This document shows positions 6,201-63,604 of a stretch of 64,000 nucleotides of DNA, in pieces. The notes beneath the pieces are model-generated. The model was not told the origin of the DNA. It saw only the letters and a program-made list of their open reading frames with translations, and made no database searches. Within the stretch, counting starts at the first letter, position 1. Each line of letters opens with the position of its first letter. This stretch comes from Branchiostoma floridae (Eukaryota > Chordata > Leptocardii > Amphioxiformes > Branchiostomatidae): contig NC_049981.1 in NCBI RefSeq assembly GCF_000003815.2, positions 24,381,675 through 24,445,674 on the forward strand, in the 5' to 3' direction. A program made the translations under genes and the position numbers.

Positions 6201-9200
6201 ATCTGCATGTAGATTCTTATATATAATGCCTATTCGATGTCTTTTCATCTTTGAATCTCTAATAAAGGCGGTGCAAATGTAGCAGTTGCTTTTGTATGGG
6301 AGCCGTCTGTATGGAATCATATTCGAGTGTACGTTGTTGATTTGGGACGGTCACCTTGAATAGAAAACGTCTTTATCAACGGGTCGATGCTCATTGTAGC
6401 CATCCCATATGTTCTTCATTCCCGAACTTTTTAACGTAAAACTTCTCCTGAGAAGGCAATCTGTTCTCCTAATAAACAGTGCTCCAACCGAGCGCATTTT
6501 CCATCTCACTCAATGAAGGGCCCAATTTCAGTAGAAAATTGCCTCCACTGATAGGATGCAGTATGACTTCTAATACACTCCTATACTTCATTGATACCTG
6601 ATTTGTTTGGAGAGTAATGTAATATGGTTGGCAACTTCCGTCCGATGGAGAACTTCCATACAGCTAGTCCGGAATGCAGGACGGTTTTACAACACAAACG
6701 ATAATGATTACGGCTGTCAGAAAATCAATTTACATGCGTTTAGTATTGGAACTTGTTTACAACATCATAGTTTATGATACGGCGCTTTGATTTATTACCG
6801 TTGTTATGGTAAGTAATCTATAAAACGTCATTTGAGGCAAATCATGATTAATATAGGAAAAAAACAGTCGGGTTAAATATTCACTTTTTGTATATTGTAA
6901 AATGGCTTATTGGTGGCTATTTTGCTACGACCATTGCTGTAGATTTATCTGTTTGCTGTCTCCTCTGCATGGAAGTACAATATTACAAACTGATGGTCTC
7001 ACTTCAAATAGCCCATTTATTTCCCCATCCTAGAGTATGGAAAGCAATATTTATGGCATAGTCAAACGTATCCTCTATCTTACCTAGTACACTCACATAG
7101 ATTCATTAATGACAGAAGGCACAGAACAATCTTGGCTAGCTATAGGTCTTATTACTAAGAGAGGGTTTCTGGTTCTGTTCATAAGACGTGCGCATTAAAA
7201 AACGTTTTTGATTCTGTTCATATGACGTGCACTTTTTTGTTTTGTGCGTCAGTGCCGAAAAAGAGAATTTGTGGGCCTCTTTTTTTCATTTCCAATGTGA
7301 CGCACCATGTGCTACTAAGACTCTAAGTCCACTAGAGGCAAAGTGAGGGTCCGAGGGCTTAGATGAATAGCAGCTTTTAAAAACTTATTTTGTGACTTTG
7401 TGTTTTGTTGTCTTTTAGGCCACATTTCTGCATATTGCATCATACTCCAATCATAACAATCAAGGGTAAAACAACTTTGTCGCTGTACGGGCCCAAGTGA
7501 TTGGCCTCAGGTGGAAAGGGATCATGCTATATGTAACCGATACAGCAAACATTTCCTCATAAAAAAAGACCAATTTCCTCTTGCTTATCAACTATCAATT
7601 GTTAATTAAGCAACTTCCTAATTGGTCTGTGAACCACATCCGTAATGACTCTTCTACGGAGAAATGAATATTCTGATAGGTTGGCTTAATGATGATTAAC
7701 AGTGTAATAGTCTCTCAGTGTAAAAGGTGCACATAAAGAATTAGACTTAAACAAGTGACTACATTACTCTCTTTTACCGAACAATTAATGATGCTGATAT
7801 CAGATGAACATTATTATGGCAGAAGCTAGACTTCGGAGACGACAAAGATGATCCGCCGTGCTTTCATGTGCATATCTGTCATGGACTGAAACAGGTCAGG
7901 TTTTGATGAATTGCAATCAACTATCTGGGGAACGCGTGCAATCGGTCACGGTGTCAAGCTTGTGCACTTGTTCTTCAAATTGGAAACTCAAAATAGGTGA
8001 AATGCCAAGTCCCGTACGTAATCAATCATTTTTTGAAATACCATGTCAGGAATATTGAGTATCTAGACCAATGATATAATCCTATGTTATTAGGGAACGA
8101 CTCTAACACCAACATTCAAAACAGCCCTGACGTCAGATACACCCCTTTTCATTACAGACTACGATCGCACTACGATGGCTGACGGATTTCGCAAAGAATG
8201 TCATTGGCGAAGAACATTTTTAGCTTGTGTGTTTTCTTGTATTTGACATCGCATATCTACATAGTGGACAATATTCCAACCATTAAATCAAGGGTCACAC
8301 AAATCCAACTGTGGTCGCTACAAGATCGCTCAGGGATCGATGTCTAGTGGGAAGGGGCCTGTAAGAAACTGAAGATGATTATGTGATATATTTTGCGATA
8401 GAACTTTAATCAAAACTTCACACTTGAAGAACTGATTATTGACTATTTAAAAAGACAGACAAAGCATTCCGTGCACCGATAACACTAATGACAGCCATCA
8501 AATTAATTGGCAGCTACCACTGCTTCTAAGTAACAGGCTGTCGTATCTTAATCAAAAAAGATCTGCTGTAAGAAAGACAACGACCTTTATAGCTATGGAT
8601 ACCTCAACTTCGCCGAAGGACATAAGCAGCGAGAGAATAAACAGTTACTGTGCTATGCCCTCCCTTGAGTGCTTTTATTTGGAAAGATTCGATCCATTCC
8701 CTTCATTCAATAACCATTTATTTCACCTAAATACATTAGCCAAGCTCAAGAGGATAGAATGCCTTTATGTGATTTATATGATATGACCAAAGTGACCTTA
8801 AAACCGCCAGTAATATGATAATATCTCCATAGGCGTCCGAAAAAGGGTTATGAAGAAGCAGGAAGTTGTAAACATACTTGAAGTTTGTTTAGTTGGTGCC
8901 GTATGCAATTTATGCTTTTGATATTATGAAACTACTCGACCCATTTGACAAGTATTTCTTTTTAACTCGCTGTTAAGATGCACAATGTATACCAGGAAAT
9001 ATATATTTGCGTACGACTAAGGAAGTAGTACGATTACAATCATTCTAGATTTTGTCCTAGACTTCCCCCAATAGTGAAGCAATGTCTGTAAAAGAATAAA
9101 AGCTTTATACGAAGGTTTGTTAATTTATGACGAAAATTTCCGTTCGTCAAAAAATCAACTTTATCCAATGCACAAAATTTTCAAATGGATATGAACACGA

Positions 9201-24225: not shown

Positions 24226-26710
24226 TTGATAAGCTACAACATGTAGGGCTATGTGACTTACACAGCACTTTTGGTTGTTCCCAGAGGTAGCCATATTTGT
24301 CTTGCAAACGACATCTGTCCTTAGGCGACCCAACAATGCACACCATGAGGATTTTGTGGCCAAGGAAAGAAATCATGTCTCTAAGACAAGACAATCATGC
24401 TGTTCCTCCCAGACAGTCGGTGCTTTAAAGCCTGACTAAAATGTCAGCTCACCCAGCGCATTGTTCTATAAAATATCGTGTAACGTTAGATTCCCAGTGA
24501 GAGAAAAATAATGGCCAAGTTTACAAACTGGACGTAAAAAAAACATTCAAATCTTGTCATCAGGCCTCTTATAAAGATGGACTTTGATCAATGGTTAGTA
24601 CATGTATTTACACACCATGGGCGCCTCTATCTTAAGAGCTAACATTGACACATGCATTTCTGAATCAGATCTGAGCCCTATACTATATATCTTAGCGTTG
24701 TATTTAAAAGAGACCCGTGTCTTTGAATTGGAGCAAAAGCACGTTCCCCAGAGATAGACTGAAGTAAGCCCGTGATTCACAACTCGTGATTCATAGCACT
24801 TTCTCGGTAAGTCCGTGATTAGTGGTGTCGCTAAACCGTCAGGAGTGTCTCGACAACAACCTCGCGATAGGCATCAAGTCTCCGCGTTTTGAAAGTAGGG
24901 GAAGAGGCATATGGTTTCTCGAGTGTCATGACAGTATTCCTTTTCATCAGAGAGACTAAATGCTTTTCGGCTCAATAGCTCTCTACGTTGAGCATACATC
25001 AATCGGCCCATTAGCAGCGGCCGCTTGCGTCAGTGCATGGTGATGTGCACGTAGTGACGGCAAAAGGAAAGGGCAAGCGTCAGATCCGTCAAGTTACCCG
25101 GGCCTGATAATGGTCCATGGAATCTTTACACTGCATCATGGTGCATTCACACAGCACTTGTGAAAAATAAAATATCAACGAAGAAGCAGGGATAAAATAA
25201 ATCACAGGCACAATCACACAAAAAAACTTCAATCTTCTTATAACACTGGTCATCACCCAAGATACCTACATACACCGAAAACCATATCATAAAATGAAAA
25301 CCCCCTCCACCCCAGCTTGAGTTATCCTGTTCTCTACTTTCCAACAAAAGACTCATTGCAGTTTTACAAAAGTCAGTTACTCAGGCTTACTTTTGCCATC
25401 AAATATCGATATACCAAATATCATTAGGAATCAATGGATTCTCGAATTATGCTGTTCACACACAGCCACGAACAAAAACTTCTTGGTAAAAAAAAATGCC
25501 AGGCATCACCCCAACTAACTTCTTGAGAGCGGCACAAGACACAAACACCCCACCTCCCCCAACTATTTACAATGTAACCTTGGTAGGATGTGGTGGTAGC
25601 TATAGCATGCAAGCACGAGTTAAATAAGACCCCTAACGAAACTTTACGGTGTTGCAATTGTACTGGCTTGCCTTATTGCACGTACCCGCTAGGAGGCGCT
25701 TCTGCATTGTGAATGGACTTCATTGGTCAACAATCGCACAATGTACAATGTATGGCAATCAATAACAATTACTAGCTATTAAGACAATAGTATTACGAGG
25801 CTACATACAGAACAACAAAATATTACTGATAACAGCACAGTCATGCAAGGCAATTTACAATACCTATGACATCCTCAATTTCAGATGCAATATGATAGGT
25901 GACATAATAGATCATTAACTGAAACTTTGTTCTACATAAATCATAATGGACAGTCAACTACGTAAAAACTATGATGTATGTTAAAAATAAAGCCAACGAA
26001 ACAAACTTACCGTGATACTCTATACGTCACACTGTAGGACAAGAAATTATTCAGCATATGCTATGAACAATAACAAAGCTGTTCAAATGGAATGCAACTT
26101 AGAAGTACAAATATGTACAATATAAACAAATGTCGTTTATACCATCTCAACACAGGCGACCGTGGGATAATACTCACCTCAGCAAAATGAGCCCGCCATA
26201 TAAATGATCCATAATGTACGTAACGTTAGTCTACGAAACAAGTCAACCCGCAATCGCTGATCTCTAGGAACAAAGCGGTACAGGCACGCAGTATAGCCTA
26301 GCTCATTGAAATATTACACAAGCTGTGTGTTGAAGTCACACTTGTAATATCGTTCAAAAGCATTAGGTCTTGTGAGCTGTACTAAGAAGAAAGATATTCT
26401 TTGAGCTGGCCACCCCCCTCCCTTTTTCAGCACAGTATGAAATACGTTTTTGAACTCGCGAAATCTTTTTGACCGGACTTGCGTACAATGATTGATCAAA
26501 TTCGCTCGCATCTTATCTCCATCCTTCATGAGCAAATCTTATTATCTAAGACAGAACATAGCCAAACAGAGTAATCTGTCCCCATTCGCTTCATCATGCA
26601 ATCAATACTTTCCCACCTCATTGGTGAGTATGGTTCAAAGGTCATACATCCTGATGAGCCAAAGGTCATAGGAACCCGATGACCCAACCCACGGTGCCCA
26701 ACCTCATTTT

Positions 26711-27385
26711 TACCTCCATGAAATGTCATGGAATGGAGGTTATATTTTCTGTTATGTATCTCTGTCTGTGTAGATGATTACTCAAGAACGGCTGGATGGA
26801 TTGGTTTCATACTTGTTGTGTTGGTGGGGTGTGATGAAAGCTCGAATCGATGAGATCTTGGGAGCCGTATCTGTCGTTATAATCGATGTAATAATATCAG
26901 AAATCACCCCAGGCCTATATTTGAGATATATTGGTACAGGCATCGTGCTGTATGTGTTTGTTAATGGGCTTAGCTCAAAGCAGATAGTGAGGTGACAGCT
27001 GTTTGGGGAACCCCCAGTAGTTTTATTTATGTCTGCTTAGGACTGTTTGAAATATTTGTAACAGTTGGCACAGTAGTTACCTCCATGAAATGTCATGGAG
27101 GTTATATTTTCTGTTATGTGTCTCTGTCTGTGTACAAGATTACTCAAGAACGGCTGGATGGATTGGTTTCATACTTGTTGTGTTGGTGGGCTGTGATGAA
27201 AGCTCGAATCGATGTAATTTTGGACGCCGTATCTGTCGTTAGTAATCGATGTAATAATATCAGAAATCCCCCCTATATCTGCGATATATTGGAACAGGCA
27301 TCGTGCTTTAAGTGTTTGTTAATGGGCTTAGCTCAAAGCAGATAGTGAGGTGATTTGTATGACAGCTGTTTGGGGAACCCCGAGT
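26711..27385 (+). repeat. Tandem pair of 310-bp repeats, 367-bp period
   Basis: Copies at 26711-27020 and 27078-27385 share tacctccatgaaatgtcatg, the ttatattttctgttatgt block, actcaagaacggctggatgg, and an end at ggtgacagctgtttggggaa (the second copy has a 9-base insertion there). They differ by scattered substitutions. A partial relative is at 10283-10390. Both copies hold the same reading frame (ITQERLDGLVSYLLCWW), but no protein family is recognised. A dispersed element is more likely than a gene. Confidence 0.8.
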
Positions 27386-27836
27386 TTTTTTAATATGATA
27401 ATTAGTTTTATTCATGTCTGCTTAGGATATCATGGAGATGTGAAGCGTAAGTATAATTGTAAGAAGTTGAGGTACATTTAACGGTAATGCTTAACAGGTA
27501 TGGATGTCTCACATACTGTACTGCTGATTTGAGTGACATGGTGATTAAAATGCCATTAGGTCCTCTCATCTTAGATGGGTTGGGTGTAAGAAGTTTTATG
27601 GGCGATACAGATGTTCTGATTTCGTTACGATAAGGGACAGTTGTTAGTTGTCTCTTTCGTAGCCAATGGTACTTGTTTTTTAGCAGACGGGGTTGGCGCC
27701 AAGTATTCATCTTACATTTGATGTAGGGCTATCAGAGGAAAGTGTGCATCTCATTTTTGTACCGTGTGAACAGCTGATGTTATGACATATTGGTGGAAAA
27801 TCAAATCACCATCTGACTAAAGTTGGCCACATCCCT

Positions 27837-32689: not shown

Positions 32690-33130
32690 TTTACCCAGAC
32701 ATGATGGCATTGTCACTGGTCAGCGTACTCATATTTGGACAATTTTCATCAATAGAATGTGTAGTCCTTCCGAAAATAGTTTCATCAGGTTGGTAGAATA
32801 TAGGATAAGGGAGAAATTCTTTGTACACAACCAGTGGGTACTTACATAGCTTACGCTTCCCATGTCTCCTCAAACACCTTACGGCAAAACCTTCCAACTG
32901 GGAGTTCTGCTNNNNNNNNNNNNNNNNNNNNNNNNNNNNNNNNNNNNNNNNNNNNNNNNNNNNNNNNNNNNNNNNNNNNNNNNNNNNNNNNNNNNNNNNN
33001 NNNNNNNNNNNGATGTAGGTGGCGCTTTTGCGGTGAGAAAACAATCCCAGTTAGAAGCTCTGACGAAGGTGTCTGAGAGACATCGAAACGTAAGCTATGT
33101 AAGTACCCACTGGTTGTGTACAAAGAATGT
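32690..33130. mobile_element. Inverted Penelope-like repeat ends around assembly gap
   Basis: The 100-N gap (32912-33011) is flanked by inverted copies of one sequence. At 33090-33127 the plus strand reads gtaagctatgtaagtaccca and then ctggttgtgtacaaagaat. The reverse complement is at 32816-32853. On the gap side of each arm the match continues with divergence (ggtgtctgag...agacat versus ggtgtttgag...gagacat). The right arm holds a hammerhead-like core. Ends of this type are typical of Penelope-like elements, whose terminal repeats are known to carry hammerhead ribozymes. No reverse transcriptase is visible. Confidence 0.5.
33056..33096 (+). ncRNA. Hammerhead-ribozyme-like motif
   Basis: CTGACGA at 33060-33066 and GAAAC at 33085-33089 flank a seven-pair stem (GGTGTCT with AGACATC, one G-U pair, loop GAG). 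Next come GTA and AGCT, and this AGCT can pair with the AGCT just before CTGACGA as stem I. Stem III would be only AC/GU with no loop, so it could work only as a dimer, as proposed for Penelope-type minimal hammerheads. One extra A lies between the core and stem II, so activity is uncertain. Confidence 0.4.
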
Positions 33131-47322: not shown

Positions 47323-47728
47323 GTTAGGCTCCCCATGGTTCAGAGTACACGCTTAATTTATTCACATATTTTCCTCTGTGTTAGACATGGGGAGCCTAAC
47401 NNNNNNNNNNNNNNNNNNNNNNNNNNNNNNNNNNNNNNNNNNNNNNNNNNNNNNNNNNNNNNNNNNNNNNNNNNNNNNNNNNNNNNNNNNNNNNNNNNNN
47501 NNNNNNNNNNNNNNNNNNNNNNNNNNNNNNNNNNNNNNNNNNNNNNNNNNNNNNNNNNNNNNNNNNNNNNNNNNNNNNNNNNNNNNNNNNNNNNNNNNNN
47601 NNNNNNNNNNNNNNNNNNNNNNNNNNNNNNNNNNNNNNNNNNNNNNNNNNNNNNNNNNNNNNNNNNNNNNNNNNNNNNNNNNNNNNNNNNNNNNNNNNNN
47701 NNNNNNNNNNNNNNNNNNNNNNNNNNNN
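47323..47728. other. Perfect 15-bp inverted repeat and assembly gap of 328 N
   Basis: gttaggctccccatg at 47323-47337 is repeated inverted (catggggagcctaac) at 47386-47400, directly abutting the N run at 47401-47728. It may be the terminal repeat of an unassembled element or a hairpin that blocked assembly. Confidence 0.7.
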
Positions 47729-53317: not shown

Positions 53318-56300
53318 ATGTCGGCCGCAGCTTCGAGGTTGTTCAACACCATCGGACGGATCGGGTTTGGGATCGCTGTAGTCGGCGGGGTGGTCAACAC
53401 GGCACTGTACAACGGTGAGAATTGCGTGAGAATACTACTAGACGGCATGTGGGGCCTTTAGATACGGATCACAGTCGAAAAAATGCCATTATGGTCCTTG
53501 TGTAACACCGTAAAAAATTATTTTCGTGTGGGGAGGGGGGCGTTTTTTTCTCCCCCTTGCATCATAACGCATCGCGCTTGCATGCGTAGATACACTTAGT
53601 TAAATGTGTCTAGACCTTATAAGCCAGTTCTTGTTTCTGAGGGAAAAAACACAACTTTGTGTTAATACTGTTGTTGGATAGAGCTGCACGGGCAGACTCC
53701 TGTGAGAGATTGCTCCTATTACGCAATTTACGATAACATAGATTAAGTTCTCAAAATGGTACGCAGGAGTGATTTAGATCAAAGCGTTGGTTAATTTCTT
53801 ATAAAGATACTGGTGTAATTCGCACAAGCGTACCATTTAGAGATGAGCCGAGGCAAGTCCGAGAGTGCGGACGTGCCAGTGTGTTCCCGTCCGTTGACAG
53901 TTGGGAACAGTCGTTGGCAAGTGACCAAATTCTCACAGGGCCTATGAAGTGAGTTTACTCGTGAGCTGCCAACTTGGTTTCCTTTTTTTTTTAAATATGC
54001 ATGTAATTCATATGCAATGGGATATTAATATGATATATAACCATCACGCCTGGTACCAATTTTCTTTGTATTAAAAGACAGCTGCTCATCTGTAATATCC
54101 TATTATGTTATAATTTTGCATGCTACAGTTGATGCTGGTCATCGGGCGGTCATCTTTGACCGCTTCACCGGAGTGAAGGAGTCCGTAAGCGGAGAGGGGA
54201 CACACTTCCTGATCCCCTGGGTACAGAGACCCATCATCTTCGACTGCAGGGCCAGACCTCGTAATATTCCCGTCATCACAGGAAGCAAAGGTAGAGTACC
54301 GGTATTTTCTGACATAGGGATATTTGATTTTGACAGCCTGCTTGCTATAACCATGTGCCTCCTCTCTTTTGTTTTCTCACACATCTATCGTGCAATTTTT
54401 CCATAGAAAAAAACCCTGATGTTTTAAGGTTGCCATCAGTAAACAACATCACCAAAATGAAATGCAAAATTTATGTATGGTTTAGGGAGAAAGAAAGCAA
54501 GATCTTTTATCCAGAAAACCAACCCTGTGACGTGATTGCCAAAGGTGGTCCAAAAAATCAGCTTGCATTCTTTAATATATAAGTTTAAACATCATCCTTG
54601 AAAAGAATGGATCAGTACACAACAGGAAAATATTTTGCCTGAAAAGCCCGGGAGATCCAAAGGACCTTTTAGACAGCAGGGCTCGAAATTCATTTTTGGG
54701 ATTAAGTGCACTGGTGCACCCAGCTTAAAAAATTGGGTGCACCAAAAAATTTTTGGGTGCACGACTTAAATTCAAGTACAACTTATGGCAAAACTTAGCT
54801 ACAAGCTATCAAATTCTTAAACAAGTACCATGACAGAAATTTTTATTATCTTTCTAACACTTAGATGTCAAGAATATTATGTATACTAGTATACTTTGAT
54901 ATCTGTACATACATAAACATAAGAAAATAATTGGGTGCACCCTGTGCACCCACAGCTTCAATTTTGGGTGCACCTGCACCCAGTATTTCGAGCCCTGGAC
55001 AGCAACACTGCTGGCATCCTCTGGGCTGTTTGAGGTCATTGACTCAAATGTAATACAAAATACAATATGTACAAATATCATATTGATAGGGCAGAGCAAC
55101 CCACTGTTCCTCATGAGGAATCTATTACCTTTTTCAGATCTCCAGAATGTGAACATCACCCTGCGAATCCTGTTCCGGCCGGTGGCAGCCTCCCTGCCCA
55201 AGTTGTACATGAGTCTGGGTACAGACTACGATGAGAGAGTGCTGCCTTCCATCACTAATGAAGTTCTCAAGGCTGTAGTTGTAAGTACAACATATCCATA
55301 GTCTTTAAATCAAAGGTAAAAATTGTTTCAATGCATAATGGCATTGTCATCAGAGTTGTTAACTATGAATCTAAAGCCTTAATAAAGATTGTGTTTAGCT
55401 AAAGAGTTATCCCATGTTGTGCTCCTTGGAAAGGCACTTAATTAGTCGATTTCCTTTTTTTTTTGGCTCTGGAGAAAATTAACACCTAAGTCTGGTCAAG
55501 AACACTCTATTGAATGGGCACGAAGTCGCATGCTTCATGCTACTAGTACCCCTGTACCCCTGTACTCCATCTTCATGGCTACCTTGTCCCCCCAGCGACC
55601 TGGAGGTCAAGGGACTACCGTAGGTAGGTAGGTAGTGATAATACCCCTGCAAACTGCAATTAGGGATGGCTGATATGATAGCCATTTTCTCATTATCTGC
55701 AGGCAGATTAACACCAGAGTTTACCATGCTCTATTGGAGGTCCCATTCCATGTCGAGCTTCCATGCCTCTATACATGTTTCTCTGTCGTAGTCCACTGGT
55801 AGTGGTCTGTGTTCAAATACCATACTTTTTTTGAAAGTGCTAAGTGCACTATTTAAAATGGTTTTGGATGAGTTTGCAGTCCATAACCTGTCCCATCCCT
55901 CTGTTTTGTGACAGACAAAAATTCCACAGCTTTACATATAAAAAAGTCTGAATTTCATTGCATGAAATTGCAAAAAAAGGATTTTTCTTATCTCAAAAGG
56001 ACAGATCGTCAACATGGGCTCCCAAGCAATGTGCGGTGCAGAAAAATAAAGCTCAACTCACAAGGCTACTGCACTGGTAAAGGGTATACTGCATGGTCAA
56101 AATATGGTTATTTATGTGAAGTATTCAGTAAAGGAACTGAACTGAACTGACTGCACCTATGTTTTCCAGGCACAGTTTGATGCCAGTGAGTTGATCACCC
56201 AGAGAGAGTTGGTGTCTCAGAAAGTATCAGAAGATTTGATGGAGAGGGCAGCACAGTTCGGACTTATCCTGGACGACATCTCACTTGTAAGTTGTTGAAC

Positions 56301-58594
56301 TTGAAGAGCACCACAAAATAGCAAATACACTCAATTTTGTGAAGTCAGAATCAATTAAACTACATGCAAGACATCTTAAATTTAAATATATGATTCTTTT
56401 TTTTTTATGAAGTAAAATGTTACTGCAACTGTAGAGTAGCTGTAATTTGTGAAGATAACTGGTTATTTTTATAAATTTTCAAGTACAATGCTGTGCAGGG
56501 TGCACACTTTACTAAAAAGACATTCAAAAATCAATTGTTTCATTTGATTGCATATTTTTAGTCCCCAATAGAAGGAATTCAGTTGCATTGTTTTGATCAA
56601 TGTATATTACTGCATTTTTAAAGATTTATAAAGTCTCCAAAACAGTTGCTTTTGTGTTCTACGTATACAGTCTAATTGCATATAAAAGCAATACGGGTGC
56701 ACCCTGCATATATAGATATGTTGTTTATGTTACCAATGGAGTGTTTTCCCATCAGACCCATCTGACCTTTGGCCGAGAGTTTACTTCAGCGGTTGAACAG
56801 AAACAGGTGGCGCAGCAGGAAGCGGAAAAGGCGCGGTTTGTCGTAGAAAAGGTAAGGTTGTCTCCATATTCCAATAGTGTCCAGAAGTAACACATATTTT
56901 TAACGTTTGCCTCCGATATTAGACCCATTTGACGTTTGGCCGAGAGTTCACCATTGCTGTTGAGCAGAAGCAGGTTGCCCAACAGGATGCTGAGAAGGCT
57001 AGATTTGTAGTAGAAAAGGTTTGTGCAATACATGTGTATAGATAAGATTGTACTGAGTGTTTCTGCTGGACAGGCTTGCCTCTCAAGGTATGTGCTGAAC
57101 TTGAGCATCTCCCAAACACTCCTGGGTTGAGAAAATCAATGCAGCCATAGTACCATAATCCATAACCCAACCACAAACATAGCCATCAAACTCTAACGTG
57201 CAGTTACAAGAGTGATGGACTAGGTTCAGAAGGTTAGAAAATACCGAACACTGTTAAAGATTGTGCAAGTTTCGGGCCTTCGGTACTCGAAACTGCTGTT
57301 TGAGATGCCCTGTAAGCCATTGGCCAGCAGAAACACTGATGTACATGTACCTGTGCCATTTGTTTTTGTCTTCCACCTATGTTTTGGCAGGAAAAATATA
57401 CCAGAACAGCAAACACTTTGGGGGGAAGCTCAGGAAAAGTTTATAGTAACAGTTTCATATTGTTCTTTCTCACATATAGGTGGGTCACTGGGTGGCGTTG
57501 TTTCAAGAAAAATAAGAATGGACAAACTTTGTTATTTCAGTCTTAACCCAGGGCATTTATTTATCAAGTTCTGTTTTTCTAAACAGGGTCTCACTAAGTG
57601 ACTAAACTCTGCATTTCAGGCCTTTCAGTAAAGAAGCCAACTCGTAATTAAGTGAATACGGGAATTTTAGTCAGAAACAGCTATCACTGATTTTCATGTT
57701 GCAACATTGATAGCATAATTGTACTCATCTTTTGGACTTGTTTTTTTTCTAGAGTACCGAGTATGACATTCCAGCCTCTGCATTTCATAGAAGACAACTT
57801 TCCCAGTTTGTTTGAAAAACAAAATCCTTTGACTACATTTCTGGTCTCATTGATGAGTTTCTTCTTCCCATAGACTTCTATGTTATAATTCGTGGTTTAA
57901 ATGGCATAATGAAGCTACGTGAAATTTCAGCAGATTTTTCATTCTATGTCGAGCACATTTACCCTTTATTGTGGGAAAAAATTGCCAACGTAAACTAGCC
58001 ATTGGAACTTTTTTTATAGCAATTACAAACTACGATTAGTCAATCCCCAAAAAAGGCACTTTTTCGCTGCTGGTGTACAACCGTACCACTCAGAACCCAC
58101 GACTGTGTACCTCCGACCTAGCGCGCAGCTGCAAAACTTTACCTGCTAATTTCTTCAGTTGCAGACAAGCTTTCACCAATCTAACTTTTGAGATCAGTTC
58201 CGCTGGCTGAAAGGGAATTTCTCACCGCTAAAAACATGCGTCCGTGCAGCCGTTTATTTTTTGGCTCGGATCTCTTTTAGGGTACTCACTCGGAGTAATA
58301 CATCAATGAGACCTTCTAATACCGAGGATAAATCTTTTGCCATGTCAAGATAATTTCAACATCCAACAATTTTTCCAGGCTGAGCAACAGAAGCTCGCCG
58401 CCATCATCATCGCAGAAGGCGACTCCAAAGCAGCGGAGCTTCTGGCGACAGAGTTTGCCAAGGCTGGCGACGGTCTGATCGAACTGCGTCGGCTGGAGGC
58501 TGCGGAAGATATCGCCCTGCAGCTCTCCCGATCACGCAACGTCGCGTACCTTCCTCCCGGACAGAACACCCTCCTGTCACTACCCACTAATTAA
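53318..58594 (+). CDS. PHB1: Prohibitin 1 with duplicated alternative exon
   Basis: Subunit of the ring complex with prohibitin 2 in the mitochondrial inner membrane, which stabilises inner-membrane proteins. Exons are 53318-53414, 54129-54290, 55138-55280, 56170-56286, then 56756-56851 or 56923-57018, then 58379-58594 (TAA). With one of the two 96-nt exons the protein has 276 residues, close to the usual 272. Residues 1-32 give the N-terminal hydrophobic anchor ([15 protein letters not shown]). The SPFH/band 7 domain follows ([18 protein letters not shown], then [16 protein letters not shown], then [13 protein letters not shown]). The C-terminal coiled coil spans HLTFGREFT to [15 protein letters not shown]. 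The 3' UTR is split: a donor follows the stop by one base and the next exon starts at 58857. AATAAA is at 59425-59430. Confidence 0.96.
54677..54997. mobile_element. 321-bp MITE in a prohibitin intron
   Basis: Perfect 13-bp terminal inverted repeats cagggctcgaaat / atttcgagccctg, flanked by the direct repeat gacag (54672-54676 and 54998-55002). The CAGGG start is hAT-like, although the visible duplication is 5 rather than 8 bases. The interior carries several gggtgcac motifs in both orientations. Confidence 0.8.
55413..55500 (+). mobile_element. Short SINE body fragment
   Basis: Contains gtgctccttggaaaggcact followed by a T-rich stretch and aattaacacctaag, resembling the body module of the tRNA-derived SINE copies. 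No head is visible. Followed by a short (TAGG)n run near 55620-55640. Confidence 0.35.
56756..57018 (+). repeat. PHB1: Tandem duplicated prohibitin exons, probably mutually exclusive
   Basis: Exon A (56756-56851) and exon B (56923-57018) are each 96 nt, phase 0 on both sides, with an AG acceptor and a GT donor. Both encode [20 protein letters not shown] followed by .[10 protein letters not shown]. They differ at two residues (Ser versus Ile, Glu versus Asp) but at about 16 synonymous bases, so both have been under protein-level constraint. The 71-base intron between them is short, which would disfavour joining A to B. Joining both would keep frame but double a coiled-coil segment. Confidence 0.88.
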
Positions 58595-60135: not shown

Positions 60136-63100
60136 TTACCCCCCTCCTTCCCCTCTGGCCTTCATTCTCTCCACAAATGACTGGCTCTTGCTCTTGCGGA
60201 AGTTCTCGAAGGGATCGTTGACCGTGACCCCCACCCCCTTGAACATGTCTGTCCTGTCCCGGACATCTCCACCTCGGATGGGCTCCTGAATCCCCTGCTC
60301 TGTAGCACCAAGGCCAGCTCCTGACCAACCTGAATTAAGAACACACAGAAAATGCAGAAATCTTTGAACTTTTTGGACAAAAATACCCTGCAGTTCCTAA
60401 GCAAGAGGCAAGGAGGCACAAACCTTCCTCATCCTAAAAGCTATCAGCAACCCCATACAACTTGATTGCATGTTCAGATCAGATTGAGAATATTAAAAAA
60501 AGGCAAGAAAACAATCTCTACATGTGTCTCCCAAGACCTATCCACATACCAAATTTTATCACAGTCAATCTAGAGTTTCTTCAAAGCTGGAGACAGCCCT
60601 GGTTTGAACCCATGACTGCCAAAATGCACAGCAAGCACCAGCTTAAAAAGGTTGGTCATGGCAGTAGGAGGCAAAAGAAGTGTATGAAAGTATTGAGTTT
60701 ATGTATTTACCCATTTTGGTGAGCAGCTGGTGACCTTTGTTGGCAGAACTAATCTTGGTGTCCATGGTAGCTGATTCATAGAATGGCATGGAGCTGTAGA
60801 TAAGACACAAAACAGATTGAACACACTGTCACTACAGTCTCGTTCTTCAAACTTAACAAGTCTAAGGACTCAATCTGTATATTTTTTTCTGTAACTTGTG
60901 TCAAATTGCATGCTATCATTTTTCCTTGCTCTCAGGAAAATGATTCAGCAAATACCCAAGCTGCAGTTTACCACAGCTTCTTAGGCCTGCAGAATACTAC
61001 ATTATCATTGATTTGTAAGTCTTAAGAGTGCCTTTGTACTGTGTCTTAGTTACTGTACAACTAAATAATGACACACAATACAAACTTGTTTTTTAGCATG
61101 CAAAATTACAAGTTGTTTCCAGTTTTTTTTAATGCAATTACAAAAAAATTCTTGCTAAGTGCAAGTGGGCAAGCCAAAAATTATATAATGAAGCAGCAAG
61201 CATCTTCAGGCAGCTACAAAATATTAGTTGTAAGAATGTCGCTACTATAAATCATTGCTATAAATGTACTACATACTACATGACCAGCTCTTGTCAACAG
61301 TTACTTAACATGTACAATGTATATCAGCATTTAGATGGAGTAGATTCTATAGTTAGTGTCATTCTACTTTTAAAAAGTTTGTTCCTTTTTGGAGGACCTG
61401 ATAGTAGTATGTAACATGCAGAATATATTGGGCTGCCTTTTTGCTCAAGATGTGCATGTACATGTATGATTGAGGCCTTTAAACTAGCACTATTCTCAAG
61501 CCACAGTTAGTTGCTGATGTTAACATAATCAATGCATATGACCACTGTACGTCAACATTAGAGCGCATGCAGACGACATTTAGGTAAACTGTGATCTTAC
61601 AAGCTGGCTGGAGAAGGACTCCGTGAATGTGACCTTGATCTTGAGCGGGAGGTACGTTGGTAAGGGAGTGGGGAGTGGGACCCCGCCCTGTGTAGGAAGT
61701 AGCGGGAAGTCTAGTATTAGCCATTTTAGTACACGGGCTGGCTTTACCTTGTCTGGTATCCATCTTATCCCACACATAGGATAGCTCCTCTGAACCTGAT
61801 CACTTCCCTGCTGAATTCTCCAAAACCCATCCCCATCAAATGTTTAGCACTAACAAACGCGCATGTCATTAATCATTCTGGGTATTGAAAATATTTTTTT
61901 AAAGCAGTGTAATGTACATGTAGAACAGATTTCTGAATGCCTGTTTGAACCCTGCTTCCATGTCCATGTAGTTACATAGAACTGGGTGAATCAATGCCAA
62001 CCTAAGCTGTTGTGATGTGCAGCTGTATATACAATGTAATACATTAATGTGCATGTAAATGCCAATCCATACATGTACCATATCAACATACAGGGACCAG
62101 TCCATTTAGCAGGGAACAATCAGAATTGGAGCTAGCATAACACAAACACCAGACTAGGCTTACCAGTATCCAAAGGGTATGCGGGTGGGCTTCTTTTCAT
62201 ACATAAGGACCTATGTACAGGTTGTGCCTACCAAATCCTCCTCGTTCAAAAATCAATATTTCTTCCTTCAACTAAATGTCCGGGGAGCTTGACACTGCAC
62301 ATTCCTTGACGTAATTTATGCAGATTTCACACGCAGAAAAAAATTCCCTTCATGTAATATTTTAGCATACAGGGGCCATGGTTCACAATACTCTGTGCTG
62401 AGAAAACCAAACCTGCAATTTTGTATTACAGGAAAATACATGTCAAGAAAGTGGGAACAGCTTTGATATGATCAAGTCCTAAAAAAAGCAGGATCAGATT
62501 AAACTACAGGACAACACCTAATGTAATTACCTGACAGTGAGTGAGACAAAACACTGTCTAGTATTCGTATCTAAAAGTGCATGTACAGTAGATGTCAAAG
62601 TGCACCGGCATTTCACAAGTTACACGTCTAACATTAAACATACATTTGTCATAGACACTATGCTCTTTCATAAATATTGTTTGAAAAAGAATGTAACAGC
62701 CTATATAACATATTGAACACAACATACCTCTTTCTGCGTGGACTTGGTGATCTTGAACGTGACCTTGACCTTGAGTAGCTGGAACACATAAAAAATTCAA
62801 AAGCAATGCTGTCAGATTAAAAGCAAAATGTGGAAACAATTTTCACAGTCTTTAAAAACTGATAAACATGTATGGAGCAAAACTATTAATACCCAGTTAA
62901 CTAGGCAACTTCAGAACCACAATGATACTATTTGACATTTCCCATGTGAGGATTACCTTCTAGATCTGGATCTGGAGTAGGATCTCTCCCTGGACCTGGA
63001 GCGAGATCTGGAGCGGGACCTGGAGTAGGATCTTCCTCTGGATCTGGAGCGGGATCGGTGCCTCCTTCCTCTAGATCTGGATCTCGACCTACATGTACGA

Positions 63101-63604
63101 CAAAACAGATCAGGACGTATTGTTTGTGTTTTGATTTCAATTTTTTTTAAATAAATGTAAACAAGATATGATCGAAAAACATATCTGGATCTCAACCTAC
63201 AAGTACAACACAACAGATCAGGACTTATTGTTTATATTTCTATTTCATTTTTTAAAAATACTTGTAAACAAGATATGATCGAAAAACATATCTGGATCTC
63301 AACCTACAAGTACAACACAACAGATCAGGACTTATTGTTTATATTTCTATTTCATTTTTTAAAAATACTTGTAAACAAGATATGATCGAAAAACATATCT
63401 GGATCTCAACCTACAAGTACAACACAACAGATAAGGACTTATTGTTTATGCATTGATTTCAGTTTTATAAAACTTCCAACTTTGCAAAAGCAGTGCAATG
63501 GCAGGTCTTACCTCCTGGGTCTCATCTTTTCCTTCATCTTCATCTGTGAATACCTTCTCTTGGCCTTGAAGAACTCGTACAGTCCATTGTGCTCCCAGCC
63601 CTCA
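60136..63604 (-). CDS. CHERP: CHERP-like RS-domain and G-patch protein, 3' part
   Basis: C-terminal part of a homologue of calcium homeostasis endoplasmic reticulum protein, a nuclear U2 snRNP-associated splicing factor despite its name. Minus-strand exons 5' to 3' are 63512-63604, 62957-63088, 62728-62778, 61601-61687, 60711-60793 and 60136-60329. The first encodes EGWEHNGLYEFFKAKRR. The next three encode Arg-Ser repeats (SRSRSRGRRHRSRSRSRG and similar). The last two join NKGHQLLTKMG to WSGAGLGATEQGIQEPIRGG, the G-patch-like region, and end FVERMKARGEGGG. All phases agree. The SURP and CID domains lie beyond the window edge. The TAA sits inside a perfect donor-like ggGTAAGT, so a further exon cannot be excluded, but the length fits the family C-terminus. 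Confidence 0.9.
63075..63465. repeat. 107-bp tandem repeats copying a CHERP splice acceptor
   Basis: Three near-identical 107-bp units (starting 63181, 63288 and 63395, the last partial at its right) plus a diverged 108-bp unit whose left edge lies in the CHERP exon 62957-63088. Each unit holds, on the minus strand, ttgtacttgtag|GTTGAGATCC, a copy of the real acceptor catgtag|GTCGAGATCC and the first exon bases. Confidence 0.88.

Follow-up and report, generated by a model that had tools for sequence, protein, structure and literature searches.

Two tandem copies of a coding exon in the prohibitin 1 gene of the lancelet Branchiostoma floridae

Prohibitin is, to our knowledge, usually regarded as one invariant housekeeping form. 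The prohibitin 1 (PHB1) gene of the lancelet Branchiostoma floridae raises the question of why two adjacent exons should encode the same part of this protein, and whether one, the other or both of them are built into it. The duplication of the exon was confirmed by computational analysis of the window (the whole 64-kb stretch of DNA studied here) and of the genome assembly. Judged from the sequence, coding exon 5 was probably duplicated in tandem long ago, with one copy used per mRNA and two nearly equivalent forms of PHB1 as the outcome.

The gene was delimited by tblastn with a solved PHB1 chain (8rrh_A), which recovered all coding parts from residue 30 on, in order and on the plus strand, and by spliced translation (Table 1). 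The chain 8rrh_A was taken as human PHB1, as its residues R157, F161, K177 and V200 agree with those named in PMC12624060. The best solved match of the lancelet protein (A version) was a PHB1 chain (E 6e-127), as against 3e-77 for a PHB2 chain. With one copy of exon 5 the lancelet protein aligned without gaps to solved PHB1, and with 5A or 5B alone its length is 276 residues, compared with 272 in the solved chain. When one exon 5 copy is counted, the coding region contains five introns; mammalian prohibitin also has five (PMC3174169), a likeness of number alone.

Table 1. Coordinates of the PHB1 coding exons, the intron between the duplicated exons and the candidate RNA elements (positions in the window)
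Feature	Position	Strand	Basis or remark
PHB1 coding exon 1	53318..53414	+	ATG to split codon, donor acg/GTGAGA; read from sequence and spliced translation
PHB1 coding exon 2	54129..54290	+	tblastn with PHB1 30-271, spliced translation
PHB1 coding exon 3	55138..55280	+	tblastn, spliced translation
PHB1 coding exon 4	56170..56286	+	phase 0 end, donor ctt/GTAAGT; tblastn, spliced translation
Exon 5A (Ser, Glu version)	56756..56851	+	96 nt, phase 0 at both ends, donor aag/GTAAGG; tblastn
A-B intron	56852..56922	+	GT-AG, 71 nt; best branch-point candidate TTAAC
Exon 5B (Ile, Asp version)	56923..57018	+	96 nt, phase 0 at both ends, donor aag/GTTTGT; tblastn
PHB1 last coding exon (exon 6)	58379..58594	+	to TAA stop; tblastn, spliced translation
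Candidate selector in A-B intron	56878..56893	+	14/16 bases complementary to 57057-57072
Candidate docking element	57057..57072	+	39-54 nt downstream of 5B; within 5' arm of inverted repeat
3' arm core of intronic inverted repeat	57321..57337	+	rival partner of 57056-57072, 16/17 complementary

Exons 5A and 5B are adjacent homologues of equal length and phase, and both encode the same 32 residues (PHB1 171-202). Their local alignment score was 112, the maximum among 300 shuffles being 30. The two copies are identical at 76 of 96 nt, and the 20 differing bases are spread over 17 of the 32 codons; 15 codons (16 bases) differ synonymously and two (4 bases) nonsynonymously. The encoded segments are identical at 30 of 32 residues, with no gap. 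Codon 11 reads TCA in 5A and ATT in 5B (Ser/Ile, human-equivalent position 181), and codon 22 reads GAA in 5A and GAT in 5B (Glu/Asp, position 192). A preliminary description of the locus had reported two adjacent 96-nt exons that differ at two residues and about 16 synonymous bases, separated by a 71-base intron and joined to outer junctions at 56286 and 58379. The exons were borne out, with both reading frames recovered; the counts proved exact (two residues, 16 bases), and the intron and both junctions were correct.

The 263-base stretch with both exons was found at a single place in the 513-Mb genome (431 contigs, the window being on contig C3), by a search that scored only its best candidates. 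Matches to PHB1 in the genome numbered 12, six in the PHB1 gene itself and six on another contig (C14), and a third copy of exon 5 was found neither in the window nor among these 12 matches. The gene on C14 had PHB2 as its best match (3.6e-16, vs 2.8e-10 for PHB1, over 39 residues). No exon duplication was found in this PHB2 gene, as tblastn with PHB1 over 5001 bases returned one copy of the region.

Divergence of the two copies was estimated by Nei-Gojobori counting, which gave pS 0.78 and pN 0.043. In a null model, random unconstrained substitutions were placed on one copy: 20 substitutions caused a mean of 11.5 residue changes, with two or fewer in 0 of 5000 trials, and nine neutral changes gave P 0.006 for two or fewer. 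The introns provided an internal control for age. Alignment of the A-B intron with the 395 bases before 5A (P 0.50) or with the 397 bases after 5B (P 0.16) was no better than shuffled, and its alignment with the like-placed 66-base stretch before 5A was not significant (P 0.08). Because the likeness of the introns is gone while both exons have kept their reading frame, their splice sites and almost all of their residues, the duplication appears to be old. As each copy keeps its frame and splice sites, both have very probably been translated for a long time, and the pS and pN values together with the neutral null carry the mark of purifying selection on both copies. The initial proposal that both copies are old and constrained was upheld on these grounds, that is, by 16 synonymous bases as against two residue changes and by neighbouring introns that can no longer be aligned.

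Donor sites matched the consensus at 8/9 positions (A) and 7/9 positions (B), and at 6-7/9 in the gene's four other donors; the B donor is the sole one of the six PHB1 donors with a pyrimidine at +3. Both acceptors carry AG, with pyrimidine fractions of 0.61 (A) and 0.67 (B), and 0.61-0.72 in the other acceptors. At 71 nt the A-B intron is by far shorter than the five other coding introns (469-1360 nt). For its branch point the best candidate A is at position 52 of the intron, 19 nt short of the 3' splice site. A weaker candidate, GTAAC, noted by eye, has its A at position 39, inside the limit of <50 nt between donor and branch point that served as the criterion of steric interference in a human survey (57 clusters, 9%; PMC5740500). 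The idea that this intron disfavours double inclusion stands in so far as the intron is very short, but the best branch point, at 52 nt, lies outside the <50-nt limit, and on these distances the intron would be a borderline rather than a decisive barrier to double inclusion.

All four splice outcomes stay in frame, with 276 residues for A, 276 for B, 308 for both and 244 for neither. Because the frame is kept with either exon, both or neither, decay cannot police the double form, and enforcement of exclusivity by frameshift plus decay fails here, 96 nt being a multiple of three. Exons not divisible by three are found in 377 of 629 human clusters (60%; PMC5740500). By eye, no U12-type donor was seen among the six PHB1 donors, all of which are GT without the U12 motif; U2/U12 incompatibility is used in five of the 629 human clusters (PMC5740500). 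Exclusive use of 5A or 5B in each mRNA appears likely.

In human PHB1 the CC1 helix starts at K177, and the part of CC1 whose position changes between closed and open cages extends from K177 to V200 (PMC12624060). The exon 5 cassette (human 171-202) nearly coincides with this moving segment. Its earlier assignment to the coiled coil applies to most of the cassette, which belongs to CC1, but not to its first residues, THLTFG (171-176), which precede the CC1 helix. The prohibitin cage has 22 subunits, in which each CC1 helix is bonded lengthwise to its neighbours (PMC12624060); prohibitin has also been modelled with 11 subunits (PMC11991916). Position 181 is Ser or Ile in lancelet PHB1, Glu in solved PHB1, Lys in 9urz_B and Ala in the PHB2 of this genome, and the term E181 is absent from the main text of PMC12624060. 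Position 192 is Glu or Asp in lancelet PHB1, Glu in solved PHB1 and Asp in 9urz_B. On this comparison the two changed positions are weak candidates for the source of a large effect. The proposal in the preliminary description that the pair is a novel means of diversifying the prohibitin ring likewise came out weak: position 181 varies among the few prohibitins seen, and the change at 192 is Glu/Asp.

Joint inclusion of 5A and 5B, always or often, would give a PHB1 with a 32-residue internal repeat. This double form of 308 residues is open in frame, the A donor (8/9 consensus) and the B acceptor look usable for it, and a branch point at 52 nt does not preclude splicing of a 71-nt intron. We nevertheless consider it quite improbable: the lancelet protein with a single copy already aligns gaplessly to solved PHB1, lancelet PHB2 is without a second copy of the region, and the insert would be expected to break the junction of SPFH2 and CC1 and to lengthen CC1 among 22 bonded helices (on the structure in PMC12624060). 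A protein with both copies would carry a second THLTFG segment within the CC1 helix, and it is unlikely that so tightly bonded a cage would accept the insert. Use of only one copy, the other being a silent relic that has not yet decayed, is very improbable in view of near-saturated synonymous sites combined with two residue changes and no gap, a pattern that 20 neutral changes did not reproduce, and of splice sites and frame retained in both copies next to introns that cannot be aligned; what such a relic has in its favour is that about five of the 20 differences could be unconstrained (P 0.15 for two or fewer residue changes after five neutral changes), in a comparison based on one sequence only. 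Lancelets are highly polymorphic and haplotype joins occur in genome assemblies, and the pair might in principle be an artefact in which two haplotypes of one exon were joined in tandem. The near-saturation of synonymous sites and the unalignable intron flanks far exceed expectation for alleles, however, the assembly search located the stretch only once, and a join would not be expected to leave proper splice sites at a spacing of 71 nt; we regard an artefact as extremely unlikely.

A further reading has both exons in use and fully interchangeable, with the choice between them being unregulated noise devoid of isoform function. It overlaps with the explanation that we prefer and has, in our judgement, slightly less than an even chance of being correct. 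It agrees with the variation of positions 181 and 192 among the prohibitins seen, with the conservative nature of Glu/Asp and with the fact that the two versions are still identical at 30 of 32 residues despite long divergence, whereas long upkeep of both copies would be easier to understand with separate uses, for example in tissue-specific splicing. That the exon pair is instead a splice-controlled setting of the prohibitin cage is conceivable, since the swapped segment covers the moving part of CC1, but unlikely. An old tandem duplication, with one copy per mRNA and two nearly equivalent forms of PHB1, is the explanation developed further below.

Complementarity between introns was analysed as a possible aid to exon choice. 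The candidate selector in the A-B intron could pair with the candidate docking element in intron 6 (57019-58378), and this pairing would enclose exon B. Intron 6 contains a long inverted repeat (arms ~57041-57090 and 57300-57350) with an energy of -47 kcal/mol, compared with a shuffle mean of -21, and this repeat would compete, as the much stronger structure, with the candidate selector pairing for the same arm (-47 vs -19 kcal/mol). A 17-mer from the 5' arm occurred at three places in the window at ≤3 mismatches (itself, the 3' arm and the A-B intron; shuffle mean 0.13). The 5' arm is also complementary to the start of intron 4 (56320-56333, 12/14) and to exon B (56957-56972, 13/16), and because these partners would not serve exon choice, its pairing is not specific.

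Full duplex energy of the A-B intron with the first 200 nt of intron 6 gave P 0.10, and that of three other intron combinations showed nothing unusual (P 0.42-0.79). When 24-nt windows were compared by energy, P was 0.03-0.06 relative to 250 shuffles and rose to 0.19-0.31 once 250 real segments of the window served as the reference. Ungapped complementarity was scored against 2000 shuffles and 2000 segments; within the first 200-322 nt of intron 6, P was 0.006-0.013, and with all of intron 6 it was 0.07-0.09. A post hoc comparison, set up once the match was known, took the arm as defined by the inverted repeat and gave P 0.001 and 0.0007; in this comparison the 3' arm had P 0.77-0.79, and the piece from the start of intron 4 scored 10, vs 12 for the A-B intron. 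A search for pairing of intron 4 with the A-B intron, by which exon A could be looped out, found none (P 0.64-0.94). Single-strand folds of 56852-57090 and 56700-57090 had energies near their shuffle means, and the fold of 56852-57345, with the inverted repeat included, reached -137.9 vs -127.3 (sd 5.8). RNA pairing was not accepted as a firm mechanism, because P depends on the measure and the inverted repeat competes; as read from these base matches, pairing around exon B is suggestive only.

The inverted repeat (331-base stretch) was located at a single place in the genome by a search that skipped very common words and would miss diverged copies. A multi-copy transposon was rejected on the basis of this one place, as far as a search blind to diverged copies can tell, and the repeat may be an old transposon or an RNA element. 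A perfect 12-base inverted repeat is present in intron 4 before 5A (56494-56505 and 56697-56708), and its GGGTGCAC core resembles, by eye, repeats in intron 2 (~54710-54990).

In the explanation that we propose, an ancient tandem duplication of coding exon 5 would have produced two interchangeable phase-0 exons of 96 nt. Each mature mRNA would normally have exactly one copy, with 56286 joined to the exon and the exon to 58379, and two PHB1 proteins of 276 residues would be made, with Ser or Ile at 181 and Glu or Asp at 192. The very short intron, with 52 nt between donor and branch point, would slow A-to-B splicing relative to the outer splicing events, and pairing of 56878-56893 with 57057-57072 would perhaps help by looping exon B out. 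As decay cannot maintain exclusivity, selection would do so by acting against a misfolded double form of 308 residues. The two forms are most likely near-equivalent in the ring, and exon choice, if regulated, would at most fine-tune the membrane-proximal segment of CC1.

Tandem-duplicated alternative exons are of a known kind, and duplicates used singly have been described in U2AF1 (PMC5224494) and OGDH (PMC7969005). Exon duplication as an event is ordinary, since internal duplications affect up to 17% of genes in six genomes, as cited in PMC7969005. Exons 4a and 4b of OGDH resemble the PHB1 pair as a tandem exon duplication in the gene of a mitochondrial protein, with a size-restricted intervening intron, and their exclusivity has been attributed to the closeness of donor and branch point, as considered here for PHB1 (PMC7969005). 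The distant branch points of OGDH, however, lie near the 5' splice site, whereas the best PHB1 candidate is near the 3' splice site; the combined length of the OGDH exons is not a multiple of three, whereas the PHB1 exons of 96 nt each offer no frame check; and a functional difference, in calcium sensitivity, is known between the OGDH isoforms (PMC7969005). Exons Ab and 3 of U2AF1 also differ at few residues (seven, vs two in PHB1) and have both been kept over long evolution, but they are 67 nt long, and inclusion of both or neither leads to stop codons and decay, whereas all PHB1 combinations are open (PMC5224494).

Dscam-type clusters share with PHB1 the duplicate exons and an outer-intron element complementary to an internal intron (PMC6071210). 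Duplication of a stem arm has been proposed to give rise to competing selectors in such clusters, where outer introns tend to pair with internal ones, and the second same-sense partner in PHB1 resembles this stem-arm-duplication model (PMC6071210). PHB1 differs from them in having one candidate selector, seen in a single sequence, and no element found for looping out exon A. In vertebrate COE/EBF a helix-coding exon is likewise duplicated in tandem (PMC2394523); both copies are included there, whereas in PHB1 the fold argues against joint inclusion.

A search of the open-licence literature by titles and abstract starts returned no report of an exon duplication in prohibitin. Nothing on prohibitin splicing was found in the portions of PMC4365374 and PMC10665256 covered by the search, and human RNA-seq studies have listed a retained intron and a skipped exon in PHB2 (PMC11346782, PMC12428622). 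Should both exons be in use, lancelets would have two prohibitin 1 forms with alternative versions of the cage's moving part, and they would provide a natural test of the roles of closed and open prohibitin. The locus would also be a clean case of exclusivity without decay of the double form, with an intron at the edge of the steric limit.

Several other repeats were recorded in the window. A tandem duplication of ~316 bases (26710-27025 and 27077-27392) is 88.7% identical between its copies; it was rejected as a pair of duplicated exons, as stops interrupt every one of the six frames of the first copy, which looks non-coding. The pairs at 7387/8216 and 10529/10819 were rejected as well, no frame being open in both copies. 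A direct-repeat array at 63075-63472 has offsets of ~108, 215 and 322 bases and 86-92% identity, and runs of N occupy positions 32912-33011 and 47401-47728.

Elsewhere in the genome, a large fluorescent-protein family gave 68 exon matches (the best with 85-88% identity) when searched with a fluorescent protein of lancelets, and these support the assignment of the DNA to a lancelet. On contig C17, two adjacent matches (14896751-14896834 and 14896849-14896932) cover the same 28 residues (57-84) of the fluorescent protein, and may reflect a further short tandem duplication within coding sequence.
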